From: Methanosarcina sp. MTP4
GTDB lineage: Archaea; Halobacteriota; Methanosarcinia; Methanosarcinales; Methanosarcinaceae
Direction: 5' to 3'
Assembly: GCF_000970045.1 (NCBI RefSeq)
Contig: NZ_CP009505.1
Span: 1,550,001 to 1,614,000 of the forward strand
DNA length: 64,000 bases
Under the pieces are notes generated by a model. That model was not told the DNA's origin. It searched no databases and saw nothing but the letters and a program-made list of their open reading frames with translations. Position 1 is the stretch's first letter. Every line of letters starts with the position of its first letter. Shown in pieces: positions 8,995 through 63,458 of this stretch. The position numbers and the translations under genes are program-made.

Positions 8995-9798
8995 TTAAAT
9001 CAGGGCAAAAGCCCTCAGGTATATCAGCATGCTGACGCCGATTAGCAGAACCCCCACATAAAGCCTCATTCCCTGCGGCGAGAACCTTCTTGCAACAGCC
9101 GGGCCCATCTGCCCTCCCAGGACCACTCCCGGAGCTACCCAGAGCATCGTATCAAAGATAAGTACCTTCTGTTCTATCAGGACAGGAATAAAGTCCGGGG
9201 TCAAGCGGAAGAGGAGGGCAATAATGTTCACAACAAAGATTATGGGGACCGTGGAACCCACAGCTTCCGCAGGAGACCTGATTTCTTTATGCTCCAGGAT
9301 GCAGGGGGTTATCAGCTTTCCAAGCCCGGTTGCGATGAGCCCTTTCAAAAAGCCGGCAACAGCAGCGCGTTTCCAGCATATATTATCACGGGTTACGAAT
9401 TCTTCCGGGACTTTTCCCCTCCTGTAAAGCCAGTAGCGGTATATGAGGTAGCTCCCGTATCCCAGGATGAAACTTGCAAAGAGGAGCAGAAGTAGTCCAA
9501 CGGGGGCAAATGGAACCAGCAGGGCTCCTACAATAGCTGCCGGGATCGTGATTTTCAGGTACTCTTTCACTATGTACCAGTTAACGGTTTCCTGTTTCAG
9601 GTTCCTGAGCACACCGGAACCGAACCCGAAGATCATGGTCAAAAGCCCGAGCCAGAAAGCCGTTTTCGTATCAAATCCAAGCCATATGATGTAGACCGGA
9701 ATCCAGAAATTCGTGCCCGAAATGCCTGCGGACATAGCAAGGATTGCAATAATGACGGCTACGGGAAAGAGAAAGGAGTAGGTCAGGCAGTCAGGCAT
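8995..9798 (-). CDS. TauE/SafE-family anion exporter (YfcA-like)
   Basis: A 267-residue membrane protein with about eight hydrophobic helices in two halves: VAVIIAILAMSAGISGTNFW opens the first, GFLKGLIATGLGKLITPCIL the second. This two-half layout with a Gly-rich turn in each half is that of the TauE/SafE/YfcA family, which moves sulfite, sulfoacetate or other organosulfur anions across the membrane. The substrate cannot be read from the sequence. No sulfonate genes are next to it. It reads away from the racemase gene. Confidence 0.87.
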   Translation of the reverse strand: MPDCLTYSFLFPVAVIIAILAMSAGISGTNFWIPVYIIWLGFDTKTAFWLGLLTMIFGFGSGVLRNLKQETVNWYIVKEYLKITIPAAIVGALLVPFAPVGLLLLLFASFILGYGSYLIYRYWLYRRGKVPEEFVTRDNICWKRAAVAGFLKGLIATGLGKLITPCILEHKEIRSPAEAVGSTVPIIFVVNIIALLFRLTPDFIPVLIEQKVLIFDTMLWVAPGVVLGGQMGPAVARRFSPQGMRLYVGVLLIGVSMLIYLRAFALI

Positions 9799-42362: not shown

Positions 42363-42420
42363 TTTTTTCTCTTCAATTTTTTCTCTTCAATTTTTTCTCT
42401 TCAATTTTCTCTCTTCAATT
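42363..42420. repeat. 13-14-bp T-rich tandem repeat after metX
   Basis: TTTTTTCTCTTCAA is repeated about four times between the convergent metX and helical-repeat genes, and the last copies run into the coding end of the latter. It could terminate both genes. Confidence 0.8.
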
Positions 42421-43322
42421 TTCAGGCCTGCGGAGCCTATCCAGAGTTCCCTCATCGTTTCCCTGATTTCTTCTATCTTCCTTACGTTTTCTTCATCGTT
42501 GATTATGTCAAGTTCGTTGAAAGATTCCAGGGCCACCTTTGCTGCGATCGAGGCGTCGTTAAGGTATCTGTTTTCAGCATGGGCCATTATGGTCTGGAGG
42601 GAGGACGTAGCCTGGAAAACGGCGTTTTCCATTTCTTCTTCCTTTGCACTCTTTCCTATTTCCTCAAGGGAATCGGCAATGCTTCCTGCCGCACTTTGCA
42701 TGTTCTCTGCCATTGCTGCAACTGCCATCTCTTCCAGCATGAGCTCTATTCCAACCGCGGCATCTTCAAGTTTTTGCTGGGCTGCGAGCTTTCCCGTATC
42801 TCCCAGACAGGAAATGCAGTTTGCGGTGTTTTCCGAAAAGTCCGGAAACCTCAGCCTGGCAACTGATTTCCCTATTTCCCCAAGCCCGACTGCAACTGCA
42901 ACTGTTTCCCTTTCCTCGTTTCTGAGAGCCGCCGAATTTCCGCTTTTTCCAAGCACCGAAGCGGCAAGTTTGGCAACCATTTCCATCTGCTGCTCCGCAG
43001 CAGCTTTTCCGATGGTCCCGAAAGAGAGCAGGATACTGATAGTTGTGCTTTCGGTTTTCTGTTCCACGGAACGCTGTAAGATCCTTTCAAGAGCCCTGAT
43101 GGAATTTACAGCGGCATTTTCCATTCCCTGCATGGTGGCGGCTTTTCCAATCGCCTTTATTGAAACTACCGCATTTTCTGCCTCATACTCTTTCCTATCA
43201 TTTAGATAAGCCGTCCCGATTTCACTCAAAAAATCGAGGGCCTGGCGCACCCCTTCGTCAAAATTCTCTTCGACGGAAGCCAGCCCCAACTCTACCATCT
43301 TGTTTTCTTCCTTTGAAAGCAT
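42387..43322 (-). CDS. alpha-helical repeat protein of unknown function
   Basis: About 311 residues, almost wholly helical, with loose repeats every 33-40 residues of the type SIKAIGKAATMQGMENAAVN, GTIGKAAAEQQMEMVAKLA, GLGEIGKSVARLRF, SLEEIGKSAKEEEMENAVFQ. Each has a helix, an IGK turn and a second Ala/Met-rich helix, as in HEAT- or TPR-like solenoids. No signal peptide or membrane segment. ATG at 43322 is preceded by GGGGTTACAGGT. I do not recognise a named family. It reads from the same side as the tiny membrane protein genes upstream. Confidence 0.8.
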   Translation of the reverse strand: MLSKEENKMVELGLASVEENFDEGVRQALDFLSEIGTAYLNDRKEYEAENAVVSIKAIGKAATMQGMENAAVNSIRALERILQRSVEQKTESTTISILLSFGTIGKAAAEQQMEMVAKLAASVLGKSGNSAALRNEERETVAVAVGLGEIGKSVARLRFPDFSENTANCISCLGDTGKLAAQQKLEDAAVGIELMLEEMAVAAMAENMQSAAGSIADSLEEIGKSAKEEEMENAVFQATSSLQTIMAHAENRYLNDASIAAKVALESFNELDIINDEENVRKIEEIRETMRELWIGSAGLKIEERKLKRKN

Positions 43323-43494
43323 GACCTGTAACCCCTTTACAACCACCAATTATTTTTATTAAAGCAGGTTTCCCGTTCGATTTGCACCTGTTATGCCTAA
43401 TTTTCTTTCACTTTTTTATTTCGATTGTCTTCTAATTCTGTTCTCTTTTCAGTTTTCAGTTCTTTCTATATCAACAAGGCTCAATTTACAAATC

Positions 43495-43599
43495 TCAATC
43501 TACAAGGCGGCCTTCTGAGAAATGATATATATAATAAAGAATCAGGAAAACAAGAATTGTAAGCACTGCTTTGAAATCTATTTTCTTCAAAAAATCCAT
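43495..43599 (-). CDS. 34-codon single-span membrane microprotein, copy 1
   Basis: The peptide begins MDFLKKIDFKAVLTILVF and continues LILYYIYHFSEGRLVD. From Asp-8 it aligns with copies 2 and 3: DFKA-V-L, LVF, LYYIYH, F-S, G. It has seven extra residues at the start and a charged end where the others have AGAIA. One membrane helix is predicted. GGGGGGATT lies about 8-14 bases before the ATG. It lies 620 bp beyond the other two on the same strand, so probably has its own promoter. Conservation of sequence and length is the main evidence that it is real. Confidence 0.68.
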   Translation of the reverse strand: MDFLKKIDFKAVLTILVFLILYYIYHFSEGRLVD

Positions 43600-43755
43600 A
43601 ATTATCAAATCCCCCCGCATTTTCTGTTATATTACTCTATTCTGTTATATTCCTCTATTTTGCACTATCCAGATGTCCCTTAATAACTTTATGGCATCCT
43701 TTGTTCAAATATTTTCAGGTTATGTATTTTCGGGCAGGAATATTCTGGAAAAAAC

Positions 43756-43819
43756 ATTCTGAGAAAAAGTATTCTGAGAAAAAGTATTCTGAGAAAAAGT
43801 ATTCTGAGAAAAAGTATTC
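43756..43819. repeat. 15-bp tandem repeat, about four copies
   Basis: ATTCTGAGAAAAAGT repeats in tandem within the 620-bp gap between microprotein copies 1 and 2. The rest of that gap (43600-43755, 43820-44224) has no supported gene. Confidence 0.88.
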
Positions 43820-44224
43820 CCGGTGGAAAATCCTTTGCAGGAGTAATTCCCGGTACATTATAATGTTAATATATTTTTCAAGTGCCCGGGAGCATAAAAT
43901 AACAAATATGCTGGTGCAAAGCACCCTTTTCGAACCTTTAATCTACCCTTCGAGCTAAGCCGTTGTACCGAGCTGTTTTGCCGAGTTTGCAACGGGCTGC
44001 TCTACTTAGTGAGACTTTTGCATATGGATTTTCGTGTTAGGGGGCTGTAGTAACGGAGGCAGTCTGTGAAGGGAAACTCTGTGCAGACATCTCCAGCTAT
44101 CCGGGTATAAATAATAGCTACAGGGATTACAGGGGTTATTCGAATAACTGCAGTGAACTTACCCTGATCCCTTCAGGACGGCTTCTTTTCTGTTTACTCT
44201 TATCGGGCTTTTCCTGAAGTTTTC

Positions 44225-44308
44225 TCAGGCTATGGCGCCGGCTGAAAAGTGATATATGTAATATAGAATTGCAAACACAAGTACTGCAAGTACTGCTTTG
44301 AAGTCCAT
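44225..44308 (-). CDS. 27-codon single-span membrane microprotein, copy 2
   Basis: MDFKAVLAVLVFAILYYIYH followed by FSAGAIA and a stop. A strong ribosome site (GGAGGATCAC) stands five bases before the ATG, identical to that of copy 3. The peptide is one predicted membrane helix with a short start and a small neutral end. It differs from copy 3 at five of 27 positions, all conservative, while third codon positions differ freely, which points to selection on the protein. It is 32 bp downstream of copy 3, so they are co-transcribed. Function unknown. Confidence 0.8.
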   Translation of the reverse strand: MDFKAVLAVLVFAILYYIYHFSAGAIA

Positions 44309-44340
44309 AATTGTGATCCTCCTTTTTTCTGGAGTGTTTC

Positions 44341-44424
44341 TCAGGCTATGGCGCCGGCGGAAATGTGGTAGATATAGTAAAGCATACAGAATACCAGTAA
44401 CGCAAGGATTGCCTTGAAGTCCAT
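44341..44424 (-). CDS. 27-codon single-span membrane microprotein, copy 3 (first in the transcript)
   Basis: MDFKAILALLVFCMLYYIYH followed by ISAGAIA. It has the same AGGAGGATCACAATT leader as copy 2. The TATA box at 44497-44509 is placed to start transcription near 44475, about 50 bases before the ATG. The family pattern MDFKA-L-LVF-LYYIYH-S-AG-AIA does not match KdpF, CydX or other micro-subunits I know. It could be a small subunit or regulator of a membrane complex. Confidence 0.8.
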   Translation of the reverse strand: MDFKAILALLVFCMLYYIYHISAGAIA

Positions 44425-44496
44425 AATTGTGATCCTCCTTTTGAAACTATCAAGAAAAATCCGTTTTGTAAGGTGAAAAATAGTAGTGAGGAGCAG

Positions 44497-44509
44497 GTAT
44501 ATATAAATT
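44497..44509 (-). promoter_or_regulatory. TATA box for microprotein copies 3 and 2
   Basis: On the minus strand GAATTTATATATACC is a strong archaeal TATA box about 75 bp before the ATG of copy 3. It implies a 50-nt leader. The divergent thioredoxin-like gene has its own TATA box at 44682-44692, so the two transcripts start about 230 bp apart. Confidence 0.6.
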
Positions 44510-44738
44510 CCGTTTTTGTGCCGCTATTGCTTCCTTTTCCGGGTTTTTTAGAGGATCTGCAATTCTCATGTTTGGTTTCATTTAAGGGCTAAATTCTTAC
44601 GTTATTTTTCAGGGAGTGAGGCCAAAGGAACGAAGCTTTATCAGCCGGAAAGTTACTTAATCACTTATTTTCTAAAAGAAATTTTATATATATTCCAGCA
44701 TGATAATCCATGGGGGATTAATCATAGCTAGAGATCTC

Positions 44739-45302
44739 TTGAGTATACGTTTTATTTCCCTGATATTGATCGGACTTCTTCTATTCGCTGCGGGGTGTGT
44801 GGAAGAGGGTGCTGAAGAAGGAGAGGAAACAGGTGAAGTTGGTGAAGCCGGGGAAAGTTCTCTTCCTGCCGACTGGAAGGACTACGAACTTGTGGATACC
44901 CGGACCGGGGAGACATTCAGGGTAAGCGATTTCAAGGGGAAGCCCGTTCTGCTCGAAACCTTTTCCGTCTGGTGCCCTACCTGCCTGAAACAGCAGCAGG
45001 AAGTCAAGAAGATGGTGGGTAACTTAGGTAACGGGGTTATACATATATCCCTGGATGTGGACCCTAATGAGGATGAGGAAATCGTAAGGAACCATATGGA
45101 AAGCAACGGCTTTAAATGGTATTCGGCAGTGGCTCCCCCGGAAATGACCCAGGAGCTCATAGATGAGTTTGGGATAACGGTTGTAAATGCTCCTGCGGCT
45201 CCTGTGATACTTGTCTGCGAAGACCAGTCCGCCCGCTTGCTTGAGCAAAGGGGAGTAAAACCGGTAGCCCTTCTGGAAGAAGAAATTGAGAAGGGCTGCT
45301 GA
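44739..45302 (+). CDS. TlpA/ResA-like thioredoxin lipoprotein
   Basis: About 187 residues from the TTG chosen here. A lipoprotein signal (LILIGLLLFAAGC) is followed by an acidic linker and a thioredoxin fold with ETFSVWCPTCLKQQQEV (active CxxC), HISLDVDPNEDEEI and the cis-proline region NAPAAPVILV. It would act outside the membrane in thiol exchange. An ATG at 44700 in frame lies only about 11 bp after the TATA box TTTTATATATA (44682-44692), upstream of the likely transcription start, so I prefer the TTG at 44739 after GAGATC. The CcdA-like gene follows and could supply electrons. Confidence 0.85.
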   Translation: MSIRFISLILIGLLLFAAGCVEEGAEEGEETGEVGEAGESSLPADWKDYELVDTRTGETFRVSDFKGKPVLLETFSVWCPTCLKQQQEVKKMVGNLGNGVIHISLDVDPNEDEEIVRNHMESNGFKWYSAVAPPEMTQELIDEFGITVVNAPAAPVILVCEDQSARLLEQRGVKPVALLEEEIEKGC

Positions 45303-45491
45303 CGGGTTTAGCTGCTGACAGGTTTGATTGCTGACAGGTTTGATTGCTGACAGGTTTGATTGCTGACAGGTTTGATTGCTGACAGGTTTGATTGCTGACA
45401 GGTTTGATTGCTGACAGGTTTGATTGCTGACAGGTTTGATTGCTGACAGGTTTGATTGCTGACAGGTTTGATTGCTGACAGGTTTGATTGC
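45299..45491. repeat. 16-bp tandem repeat, twelve copies, starting at the stop codon
   Basis: GCTGACAGGTTTGATT repeats 12 times, the first two copies diverged, the rest perfect. The first unit contains the TGA stop codon of the thioredoxin gene (45300-45302). No coding potential. It separates that gene from the ccdA-like gene. Confidence 0.95.
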
Positions 45492-45687
45492 TTGTAAGTC
45501 TTAGTGCCAATAATTTTGGTTGCGGTAGACGTTGATTGCTCGAAAATTAAATGTTGAAGTTTTCTGGGCTGTAAAACCAGATAACCGGTAAACTTCGGAT
45601 TGCCCGGAGAGTTTCAAAAAGGGAGTATTGCCAGGCAAGTTGGAGAATTTCCTGTGTTGAAGGGGGGAGCACTAAACGATAAATTAT

Positions 45688-46374
45688 TTGCTGGAGATAT
45701 CCAGGGCTTTTTTGCTCGGGCTGCTAACTCCTTTGACAGCGGTCTGCGTTATCCCTCTCTACCCGGGATTTTTAGCATACCTTTCGAACCAGCTGGGCAA
45801 GAGGCCCGGAGGGGAAGCAGAAGAACGAAGCCGAAAAATGCTGGTTTTATTCGGGCTGATCATCACGGCAGGAATCATTACCTTCATGCTCATCCTGGGA
45901 TTCGTGTTCACAACGGTTTTGCAGGTTTCCCTTACAAAAGTCATCGGCGTTGTGTCCCCTATCGCATTCGGAATCCTGATCTTTATCAGCCTCATCCTGA
46001 TCTTCGACGTGGACGTGGCAAGGTACGTTCCGAGGGGCCGGGCTCCCAGGGTCGGGAATCCCTATGTTACTGCTTTTCTTTACGGCTTCTTTTTCGGGGC
46101 GATAGTGGTCCCATGCCAGCCGGCATTTATCGCAACCCTGTTTGCAATTGCGGTCTCCAGCCCGGCTTTTGGTATAAATATGCTTCGCTTTCTCTTTTTC
46201 GGCCTGGGAATCGGCTTTCCCCTCCTGCTGTTCTCGGCTGTTTCCACCCGGTCGAGCAGGCAGATAATCGGGTTCCTGGTCAAAAACAGGAGAAATATCA
46301 ACCTGGTTACCGGGGTTGTCATGCTGGTGGTTTCCGTTTACTATCTGGTTTTCGTGTTCAGGATATTCGGGTGA
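45688..46374 (+). CDS. CcdA/DsbD-type membrane thiol-electron carrier
   Basis: 228 residues, six hydrophobic helices. Cysteines that relay electrons lie in LLTPLTAVCVIPLYPGFLAY and FFFGAIVVPCQPAFIATLF, at the start of helices 1 and 4 as in CcdA. It would pass reducing power from cytoplasmic thioredoxin to the outside thioredoxin-like lipoprotein encoded just upstream. The start is uncertain: TTG at 45688 or CTG at 45691 fit the helix, while the strong GGGGGGAG lies nine bases before an ATA at 45679. Short direct repeats (GGACTCAGGCAAAGT, three copies) follow at 46425-46465. Confidence 0.9.
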   Translation: MLEISRAFLLGLLTPLTAVCVIPLYPGFLAYLSNQLGKRPGGEAEERSRKMLVLFGLIITAGIITFMLILGFVFTTVLQVSLTKVIGVVSPIAFGILIFISLILIFDVDVARYVPRGRAPRVGNPYVTAFLYGFFFGAIVVPCQPAFIATLFAIAVSSPAFGINMLRFLFFGLGIGFPLLLFSAVSTRSSRQIIGFLVKNRRNINLVTGVVMLVVSVYYLVFVFRIFG

Positions 46375-46536
46375 GGTGTTTTCAGGAAAGGTTGGACAGG
46401 CATAATGAGACATGGGAAGAGGACTCAGGCAAAGTGGACTCAGGCAAAGTGGGCTCAGGCAAAGTAGTATAAAGAAAATAGAGGTCCGGGAAATCCATTG
46501 TATTATTAATTATTTTCATTGATGGGGGGATTATGA

Positions 46537-47535
46537 ATGCTTATGCAAAGGGACAGGCGGCTTGGGATGTTCTTGATGTTTGTGCTTATCCTTGCAGGCA
46601 TCCTGAGCAGTTGCTGTATCGAAAACGGGGAGGAGGAAGTGGTCGGTACGACTCCGGAGGGGCTGGAAATCAGGGTTGGTTCGGACGGGGAGAAGTTCAT
46701 TATAGAACCGGATAAGCTGGTTTCCGGGGGGCCTCCGAAAGACGGGATCCCGTCAATTGATTCCCCGAAGTACGTGGGCGTGGAGGAGGCTGATGCCTGG
46801 ATCCGGGATGACGAACTCGTGCTTGCGCTCATCTACAGGGATGTAAAAAGGGTTTATCCGCTTCAGATCATGGTTTGGCACGAGATCGTAAATGACAAAA
46901 TTGCGGGAGATCCGATCCTGATCACATACTGCCCTCTCTGCGGCTCGGGAATTGCTTATGAGCGCACGTTGGACGGAGAGGACGTTGAGTTCGGAGTCTC
47001 GGGAAAACTCTACAATTCAAACCTGGTCATGTACGACCGGAAGACCGACTCTTACTGGACTCAGATCGACGGGCTTGCGATTGTCGGGGAAATGACTGGC
47101 ACTAGGCTGAAGCCGATCTCTGTTGACACAGTGGTCTGGAGGGACTGGAAAGCAGCCCACCCGGATTCCGAAGTCCTGAGCCAGGACACGGGCTTTGACC
47201 GGCCTTACGGGCGGGACCCCTACGGGAACTACTATGAGGACAGTTTCCTCTTCTTCCCGGTGGAAAATGAGGACGACAGTAGTGTTCACCCAAAAACCGT
47301 GATCTTCGGGATCGAAGTTGACGGGGTTTTCAAGGCCTACCGTGAGTCCGACCTGATTGAAGAGGGGGTTATTGAGGACACCGTGAACGGCGTCCCGATT
47401 AAGGTCGAAAGGGGCGAGGCAGGCATCGTTACCGTCACGAACCTGGAAACCGGAGATGAAATCGTAAAGGAGAGAGACTTCTGGTTTGCCTGGTACGCGT
47501 TCCACCCCGAAACCGAACTGTATGAGGCTGAGTGA
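46537..47535 (+). CDS. DUF3179 lipoprotein
   Basis: 332 residues. Lipoprotein-type signal ends in LAGILSSCC. The DUF3179 domain covers most of the rest; ILITYCPLCGSGIAYER (with the conserved CPLC) and SGKLYNSNLVMYDRKTDSYW are its hallmarks, followed by VVWRDWKAAHPDSEVL. The function of the family is unknown; the CPLC pair could bind metal or take part in thiol redox, which suits the TlpA/CcdA genes before it. GGGGGGAT lies seven bases before the ATG at 46537. It is followed by another lipoprotein gene in the same direction. Confidence 0.92.
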   Translation: MLMQRDRRLGMFLMFVLILAGILSSCCIENGEEEVVGTTPEGLEIRVGSDGEKFIIEPDKLVSGGPPKDGIPSIDSPKYVGVEEADAWIRDDELVLALIYRDVKRVYPLQIMVWHEIVNDKIAGDPILITYCPLCGSGIAYERTLDGEDVEFGVSGKLYNSNLVMYDRKTDSYWTQIDGLAIVGEMTGTRLKPISVDTVVWRDWKAAHPDSEVLSQDTGFDRPYGRDPYGNYYEDSFLFFPVENEDDSSVHPKTVIFGIEVDGVFKAYRESDLIEEGVIEDTVNGVPIKVERGEAGIVTVTNLETGDEIVKERDFWFAWYAFHPETELYEAE

Positions 47536-47577
47536 GGTAATTTGAGTGAGGTAATTTGAGTGAGGTAATTTGAGTGA
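47532..47577. repeat. 14-bp tandem repeat over the DUF3179 stop codon
   Basis: GTGAGGTAATTTGA about three and a half times. The TGA of the DUF3179 gene (47533-47535) is the first TGA of the array. It lies just before the next lipoprotein gene. Confidence 0.85.
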
Positions 47578-47608
47578 GTTAGGTAAGTTGAATGGAGGGT
47601 TTGTGTCT

Positions 47609-48626
<1,018 letters not shown>

Positions 48627-62480: not shown

Positions 62481-63458
62481 ATGTACTGTGGTAATTGTGG
62501 ATCGAAAATGGATCCGAAGGATCGTTTTTGCTCTAGTTGCGGAAGGGAAAGAAGAGGTAAACTCGAAACCGAAAAAATTGAATCAAATAGCCATGCCCCT
62601 GATGAAATAAGAAACCTGAAAACCGGTAGTTGTGTCACTAGTAAATATAAAAAAACAATCTGTAAGTCTCTTTTGAAGTGCATATGGGTCATAACTCTGG
62701 TTTGCATGGCCGGGTTCTTTTTAACTGCGTACTCAACCCTTGCCCTTGATTCCGATGCATATCTTCCGGACCTTACCGGTCCCGGAACAGATGAAGCGGA
62801 AAGAAACGTCCAGGTCTGTGAACAGATTGCAGCCGACTATTACGAGAGCCATACATATACTGAAGATGACGTTTATGACTGCGACAACATGGCCCAGGAC
62901 GTCTGGAACATGTTGAAGGCAAAAGGTATCAATGCAAGGATTGCAGTTGGTAATTTTGATTTTGAAGATAACGGCAGGATAGGGGACGGTAGGCCTATAG
63001 GCGAAAATCTTGATTCTGAAAGTCCAGGGGAGTTCGAGACACGTGATTCCGTATCAGGGGATTCCGGCTTACTGAACTCCGGGGTAATTGATAGCTTCAA
63101 CCACGCCTGGGTTCTGGCTGAAGTATCTCCTGGTTCCTGGTTAGCCATCGAATGTACCGGGGGCTACGTTGTTTACAGTGACGAAAACGAAAACTACTAC
63201 GGCGGACTTACGTTTAGCAATCCGAGGAACTATAGGAATTTTATTGATCTTTATGCTGACTGGAAAGTACAGTCCCTGGATTATGAGAACCAGCGGCTGT
63301 ACTATAATGGACTTGTAGAAACATACAACAATGCAAGTTATTTCGATCAGCAGGCTATGAAAAGCGGGGTGGAAGTCGCTGAAAATATCCTTCATGAAAA
63401 AGAAAAAGTCTTCCTGCAAACGGATGCCAAACTGAAAGCCCTGCTGGAATATGGGTGA
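62481..63458 (+). CDS. zinc-ribbon membrane protein with transglutaminase-like domain
   Basis: 325 residues. MYCGNCGSKMDPKDRFCSSC is a zinc ribbon. One membrane helix at about residues 71-90 (IWVITLVCMAGFFLTAYST). The outside part has YDCDNMAQDVWNMLKAKGIN, SFNHAWVLAEV and WLAIECTGGYVV, giving the Cys-His-acid triad of transglutaminase-like proteases. The end is helical. It may trim or cross-link surface proteins, but no activity is proven. The ATG follows GGTGGCGGAAA. Confidence 0.87.
   Translation: MYCGNCGSKMDPKDRFCSSCGRERRGKLETEKIESNSHAPDEIRNLKTGSCVTSKYKKTICKSLLKCIWVITLVCMAGFFLTAYSTLALDSDAYLPDLTGPGTDEAERNVQVCEQIAADYYESHTYTEDDVYDCDNMAQDVWNMLKAKGINARIAVGNFDFEDNGRIGDGRPIGENLDSESPGEFETRDSVSGDSGLLNSGVIDSFNHAWVLAEVSPGSWLAIECTGGYVVYSDENENYYGGLTFSNPRNYRNFIDLYADWKVQSLDYENQRLYYNGLVETYNNASYFDQQAMKSGVEVAENILHEKEKVFLQTDAKLKALLEYG

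Follow-up and report, generated by a model that had tools for sequence, protein, structure and literature searches.

A family of single-span membrane microproteins kept by purifying selection in Methanosarcina and its near kin and co-distributed with Rnf and Mrp

Three very short minus-strand frames in a 64,000-nucleotide stretch of the Methanosarcina sp. MTP4 chromosome (NZ_CP009505.1, positions 1,550,001 to 1,614,000; hereafter the window) certainly represent a genuine microprotein family that is kept by selection and that, as far as the libraries searched extend, was previously undescribed. A sequence-only reading had proposed that these frames encode one family of tiny single-span membrane proteins, and their coordinates, hydrophobic spans, orthologues and selection all agree with that proposal. 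The three frames, termed A1, A2 and B, and the larger gene beside B are located in the window as follows.

44341-44424, minus strand: A1, a 27-codon ORF for a single-span membrane microprotein, with orthologues in 13 other genomes and under purifying selection
44225-44308, minus strand: A2, a 27-codon ORF and tandem paralogue of A1, assigned from orthologues and pN/pS
43495-43599, minus strand: B, a 34-codon ORF of the same family as A1 and A2, with a charged N-terminal extension (FLKK)
42387-43322, minus strand: a helical-repeat protein of 311 aa ("fam0"), characterized by synteny, AlphaFold2, Foldseek and VIA-align

The products are MDFKAILALLVFCMLYYIYHISAGAIA for A1 (translation of 44424-44341), MDFKAVLAVLVFAILYYIYHFSAGAIA for A2 (translation of 44308-44225) and MDFLKKIDFKAVLTILVFLILYYIYHFSEGRLVD for B (translation of 43599-43495). 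Each contains one hydrophobic span of ~17-19 residues with a mean Kyte-Doolittle value of ~2.0-2.2, preceded in all three by Asp and Lys, and a single cysteine is present in A1 and none in A2 or B. The spacing between A1 and A2 is 32-33 nt. An upstream in-frame ATG at 43620 would extend B to 41 aa but is not kept by every orthologue. Between A2 and B, at 43755-43820, the window also carries a ~15-base tandem repeat (ACTTTTTCTCAGAAT), and the apparent ORFs overlying it are repeat-driven.

The coding nature of the three frames is established by their pattern of substitution. Nei-Gojobori pN/pS was 0.21 for A1 (12 genomes), 0.15 for A2 (10 genomes) and 0.22 for B (13 genomes), and a comparison of A1 with A2 inside the window genome gave 0.14. 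In a Muse-Gaut codon model, a free omega was clearly preferred for A (lnL -754.3 vs -812.3 at omega = 1, a gain of 58) and for B (-473.7 vs -508.8, a gain of 35), with a gain of 87 log-likelihood units over omega = 1 for all members together. Residues D2, K4, V11, F12, L15, I18, S22 and G24 are invariant in the 23-member alignment. The ratio of synonymous to nonsynonymous change had been put forward with the sequence-only reading as a test, and with pN/pS values of 0.15-0.22, far from one, and omega = 1 rejected by the codon model, A1, A2 and B are therefore protein-coding genes under strong purifying constraint. Frames this small are frequent by chance, which is the ground for regarding them as spurious short ORFs; that explanation is already refuted by the selection tests, is opposed as well by the orthologues, the constraint on codons and the conserved ribosome sites and promoters, and retains a negligible probability.

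Presence of the frames at the same locus in relatives had also been set beforehand as a refutation test, and they were found there by tblastn and synteny; in each of the four genomes from the window's genus, tblastn placed A1, A2 and B at one locus with their order unchanged. Relatives were located with a scan for DNA patterns and with a family profile built from 23 members, for which a strong match was defined as E < 1e-5. The profile search recovered the family at this threshold in 14 of 112 Methanosarcinaceae genomes (four from the window's genus, two from a sister genus and eight from Methanosarcina proper), the usual complement being two A and one B per genome, and a class-wide HMM search of 238 genomes identified members in no genus beyond those three, consistent with the proposed restriction to Methanosarcina and near kin. 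We take genome G103 to be very probably M. acetivorans (it fits C2A), G110 to be mazei-like and the larger family-free clade to be barkeri/thermophila-like. All three genes are present in G103, and G110 is without intact family members.

In the tree of the neighbouring helical-repeat protein, taken as a proxy for species relationships, the losses fall in two separate, well-supported clades, which requires that A/B were lost at least twice. The A pair is missing in all 16 family-free genomes whose upstream region was read. A decayed B relic persists in G110 (alignment score 84, where shuffled sequences reach at most 33). The relic in G130 is shorter and still significant (44 vs 29), and other barkeri-type genomes give only marginal relic scores. 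Elsewhere, B is gone from G125, B is frameshifted in G111 with A1 and A2 intact, and the second A copy is degenerate in G124.

The signals that precede the three genes are located as follows.

44434-44438, minus strand: Shine-Dalgarno GGAGG of A1, read from the sequence and kept in all A1 orthologues
44318-44322, minus strand: Shine-Dalgarno GGAGG of A2, read from the sequence, with GGAG before most A2 orthologues
44498-44507, minus strand: TATA-box-like TTTATATATA of the A1-A2 unit, from an alignment of 14 A1 upstream regions
44425-44466, minus strand: conserved A1 leader, ACAAAACGGATTTTTCTTGATAGTTTYAAAAGGAGGATMACAATT and close variants, from the alignment of A1 upstream regions
43703-43720, minus strand: promoter-like ACCTGAAAATATTTGAAC upstream of B and the helical-repeat gene, conserved in the window's genus (g1) and in Methanosarcina proper

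The TATA element of A1 lies ~75-85 nt before the start and takes the form CGGCATTTTTATATACC in most of the relatives' genomes. A1 and A2 share an identical start context (AAAGGAGGATCACAATTATGGACTT), as the sequence-only reading had stated for its copies 2 and 3, and the co-transcription that it proposed for this pair is probable, judging from the 33-nt gap and the single TATA element. Its grouping of B with the A pair did not survive, as B lies ~625 nt past A2, has its own upstream element and goes with the 311-aa gene. The start of B is preceded by GGGGGG. The conserved B element, ACCTGAAAATATTTGAA, is still found upstream of the helical-repeat gene in genomes without B. Because A1 and B have separate conserved elements and that of B is kept without B, A1-A2 and B look like separate transcription units, with B in what looks like one unit with the downstream helical-repeat gene. 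In the other direction, positions 44700-48583 of the window contain divergent thioredoxin-like, DsbD-like membrane, DUF3179 and lipoprotein genes, which the window's genus keeps as a set and KYL-1 in part; a functional tie of A to these genes was considered and rejected, as most other genomes do not keep them beside A.

B resides 130-170 nt upstream of a helical-repeat gene of ~300 codons in every B-bearing genome, and this pairing holds even where A is distant or on another contig (G033, G004 and G017). AlphaFold2 models the 311-aa protein of the window as an all-helical superhelix (pLDDT 90.5), built of a 23-residue helix-loop repeat. VIA-align returned Z values up to ~19 for designed repeat proteins and 13-14 for ARM/HEAT proteins, and together with Foldseek indicates a general helical-repeat likeness, at the level of fold only. 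The protein appears to be a HEAT/ARM-like scaffold, which in its model shares the all-helical superhelix of HEAT/ARM scaffolds but differs from them in its 23-residue helix-loop repeat and in that all Pfam families scored below cut-off. The window genome (G000) encodes six paralogues of it, five of them in one cluster; this cluster (G000:C1:1989638-1994928, L103) is directly downstream of corrinoid/monomethylamine methyltransferase-like genes, and the arrangement in G103 (L105) is similar. An orthologue is present in nearly all Methanosarcina proper, and the gene survives in genomes without B; B is therefore not needed for its retention.

The start of B varies among genomes. The codon is ATG in the window's genus, KYL-1 and G124, and probably TTG in the sister genus. 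At the aligned position, which corresponds to window 43597-43599 and was compared in G103 (L080, near 9700-9780) and at further loci (L081, L086 and L083), the codon is ATC in G103, ATT in G109 and ATA in G112 and G121, with GGGGG before each; in G121 an in-frame TTG also lies nearby. The body of B in these four genomes without ATG is constrained (pN/pS 0.16), and initiation at AUA, AUC or AUU appears to be the simplest reading of their sequences. In G033 an ATG is present and an extra T puts it out of frame. An A copy in the low-coverage draft G017 (L007, 1501-1581) begins ATA GAC after GGAGG instead of ATG, reflecting either a sequencing error or an AUA start.

The distribution of the family parallels that of two energy-conserving complexes. 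RnfD (PF03116) and the Mrp subunit MnhG (PF03334) were both found in 14 of 14 family-bearing genomes and in none of 16 family-free ones, and a named M. acetivorans control has Rnf and Mrp; within Methanosarcina s.l., A/B occur only where Rnf and Mrp are present, and relatives such as the mazei- and barkeri-type species have lost A/B along with these complexes. The phyletic pattern is unusually clean and matches the published division of Methanosarcina, which sets species using Ech and hydrogen cycling (type I) apart from those using Rnf and sodium (type II) (PMC12297640). To gauge the background, we looked for 23 window genes in three family-bearing and three family-free genomes, and among the ~17 genes present in all three carriers, one was missing from all three non-carriers (~6%). 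That gene, at window 62481-63458, is missing in the mazei-, barkeri- and thermophila-like genomes and is another candidate type II-specific gene; by extrapolation, perhaps ~200 genes of the genome share the absence pattern. Because about one in 17 ordinary window genes is patterned alike, the match with Rnf and Mrp is a lead, not proof, and singles out no partner. A/B do not lie inside an rnf or mrp operon: in G000, RnfD is at 3603706, MnhG at 100919 and A/B at ~1593500-1594424.

Single-span proteins as small as these usually pack against larger membrane proteins. Their co-occurrence with Rnf and Mrp makes it plausible that A1, A2 and B serve one or more membrane complexes of the Rnf/Mrp-type (type II) Methanosarcina as accessory or regulatory subunits, and we tentatively adopt this as the likeliest reading, at somewhat under an even chance. 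A1, A2 and B would be translated into one-span membrane microproteins, A1 and A2 from one mRNA, probably with the lysine-bearing N-terminus in the cytoplasm and the short C-terminus outside, and would pack laterally against a larger Methanosarcina-specific membrane complex or complexes of sodium Rnf/Mrp energetics. B would be produced alongside the cytoplasmic HEAT/ARM-like scaffold and may link that scaffold to a membrane target. A more specific version, in which the three are single-span subunits or regulators of Rnf and/or Mrp, B ties in the HEAT/ARM scaffold and B starts at AUA, AUC or AUU in M. acetivorans-like species, has in our estimation a small chance of being correct. Counting against a role in such complexes are the location of A/B outside the rnf and mrp operons, the commonness of their pattern (~1/17 genes) and the retention of the helical-repeat gene without B.

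The main rival holds that A/B serve type II stress or envelope functions (salt, sulfide, redox) and only co-vary with Rnf and Mrp. We regard it as unlikely, albeit deserving of weight, as ~6% of the sampled genes show the same pattern and the A pair adjoins divergent thioredoxin-like and lipoprotein genes in g1 and KYL-1; however, most such neighbours are not beside A in other A/B genomes, making this link unstable. The constant position of B 130-170 nt upstream of the helical-repeat gene, the promoter-like element common to both, and the apparent AUA, AUC or AUU starts of several B orthologues, weak starts of this kind being known in regulated genes, could instead mean that B is a leader peptide or upstream ORF controlling translation of that gene, with A playing an unrelated role. 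What usually constrains leader peptides, however, is codon identity and not a membrane span. The same sequence is retained by A1 and A2 without a helical-repeat gene directly downstream, and B is dispensable for keeping that gene, leaving this explanation improbable.

A/B also share by hydropathy the small hydrophobic single span of type I toxins (Ldr/Ibs/Hok-like), and their tandem paralogues, 17-19-residue span, strong ribosome sites and patchy loss would suit peptides that depolarise the membrane under antisense RNA control, as Ldr or Ibs. Such a toxin is nevertheless difficult to reconcile with a chromosomal locus that stays fixed across the genus (four genomes) and across Methanosarcina s.l. 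(14 genomes), with strong constraint on specific residues, with a stable neighbourhood that includes the scaffold gene and with the lack of any mobile context or Rfam match, and we consider this identity quite improbable. The Rfam search of 43300-44750 gave nothing credible, with one implausible sub-threshold snoRNA match, and is one that an undescribed RNA could escape.

That the peptides belong to no known family, as initially suggested, was borne out by the absence of any Pfam match above cut-off, of any NCBIfam family for A/B and of any hit when A1 and B were searched against PDB sequences. The best Pfam score, for DltX (PF12459), was 16.3 bits against a gathering cut-off of 25, and this candidate was discarded as the likeness is confined to a short hydrophobic stretch. 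A literature search returned nothing for the YYIYH motif, and none of the terms looked for occurs in the main text of the Ribo-seq paper on M. mazei. A defined, selection-maintained microprotein family is added where archaeal annotation has a gap. It provides a tangible marker for the Rnf/Mrp (type II) way in which Methanosarcina conserves energy, and a candidate part of it, and all three genes are at hand in G103, very probably M. acetivorans, a genetically tractable species.

Among known systems, AcrZ is a bacterial small membrane protein of less than ~50 aa, and such proteins often regulate larger membrane proteins. YohP (PMC12719787) is likewise a bacterial small membrane protein of less than ~50 aa, similar in this to A/B but from another domain of life, and no sequence relation of A/B to YohP/AcrZ-type bacterial proteins was found. 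Nearer at hand, MtrR of M. mazei (PMC13370731), compared with A/B by description only, is small, membrane-associated and acts on an energy-conserving complex, Mtr, but is longer at 49 aa. MtrI of M. mazei (68 aa; PMC12774963), which also acts on the Mtr complex, resembles A/B as an unannotated Methanosarcinales small protein whose gene lies apart from the operon of the complex it binds. Identity of A/B with MtrI was rejected, as MtrI is a cytosolic protein of ~68 aa that has four helices and a zinc ribbon formed by four cysteines, whereas A/B cross the membrane once, are 27-34 aa long, lack a cysteine cluster and are absent from the mazei-like G110. A regulatory role of A/B on an energy complex has precedents in MtrI and MtrR of M. 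mazei.
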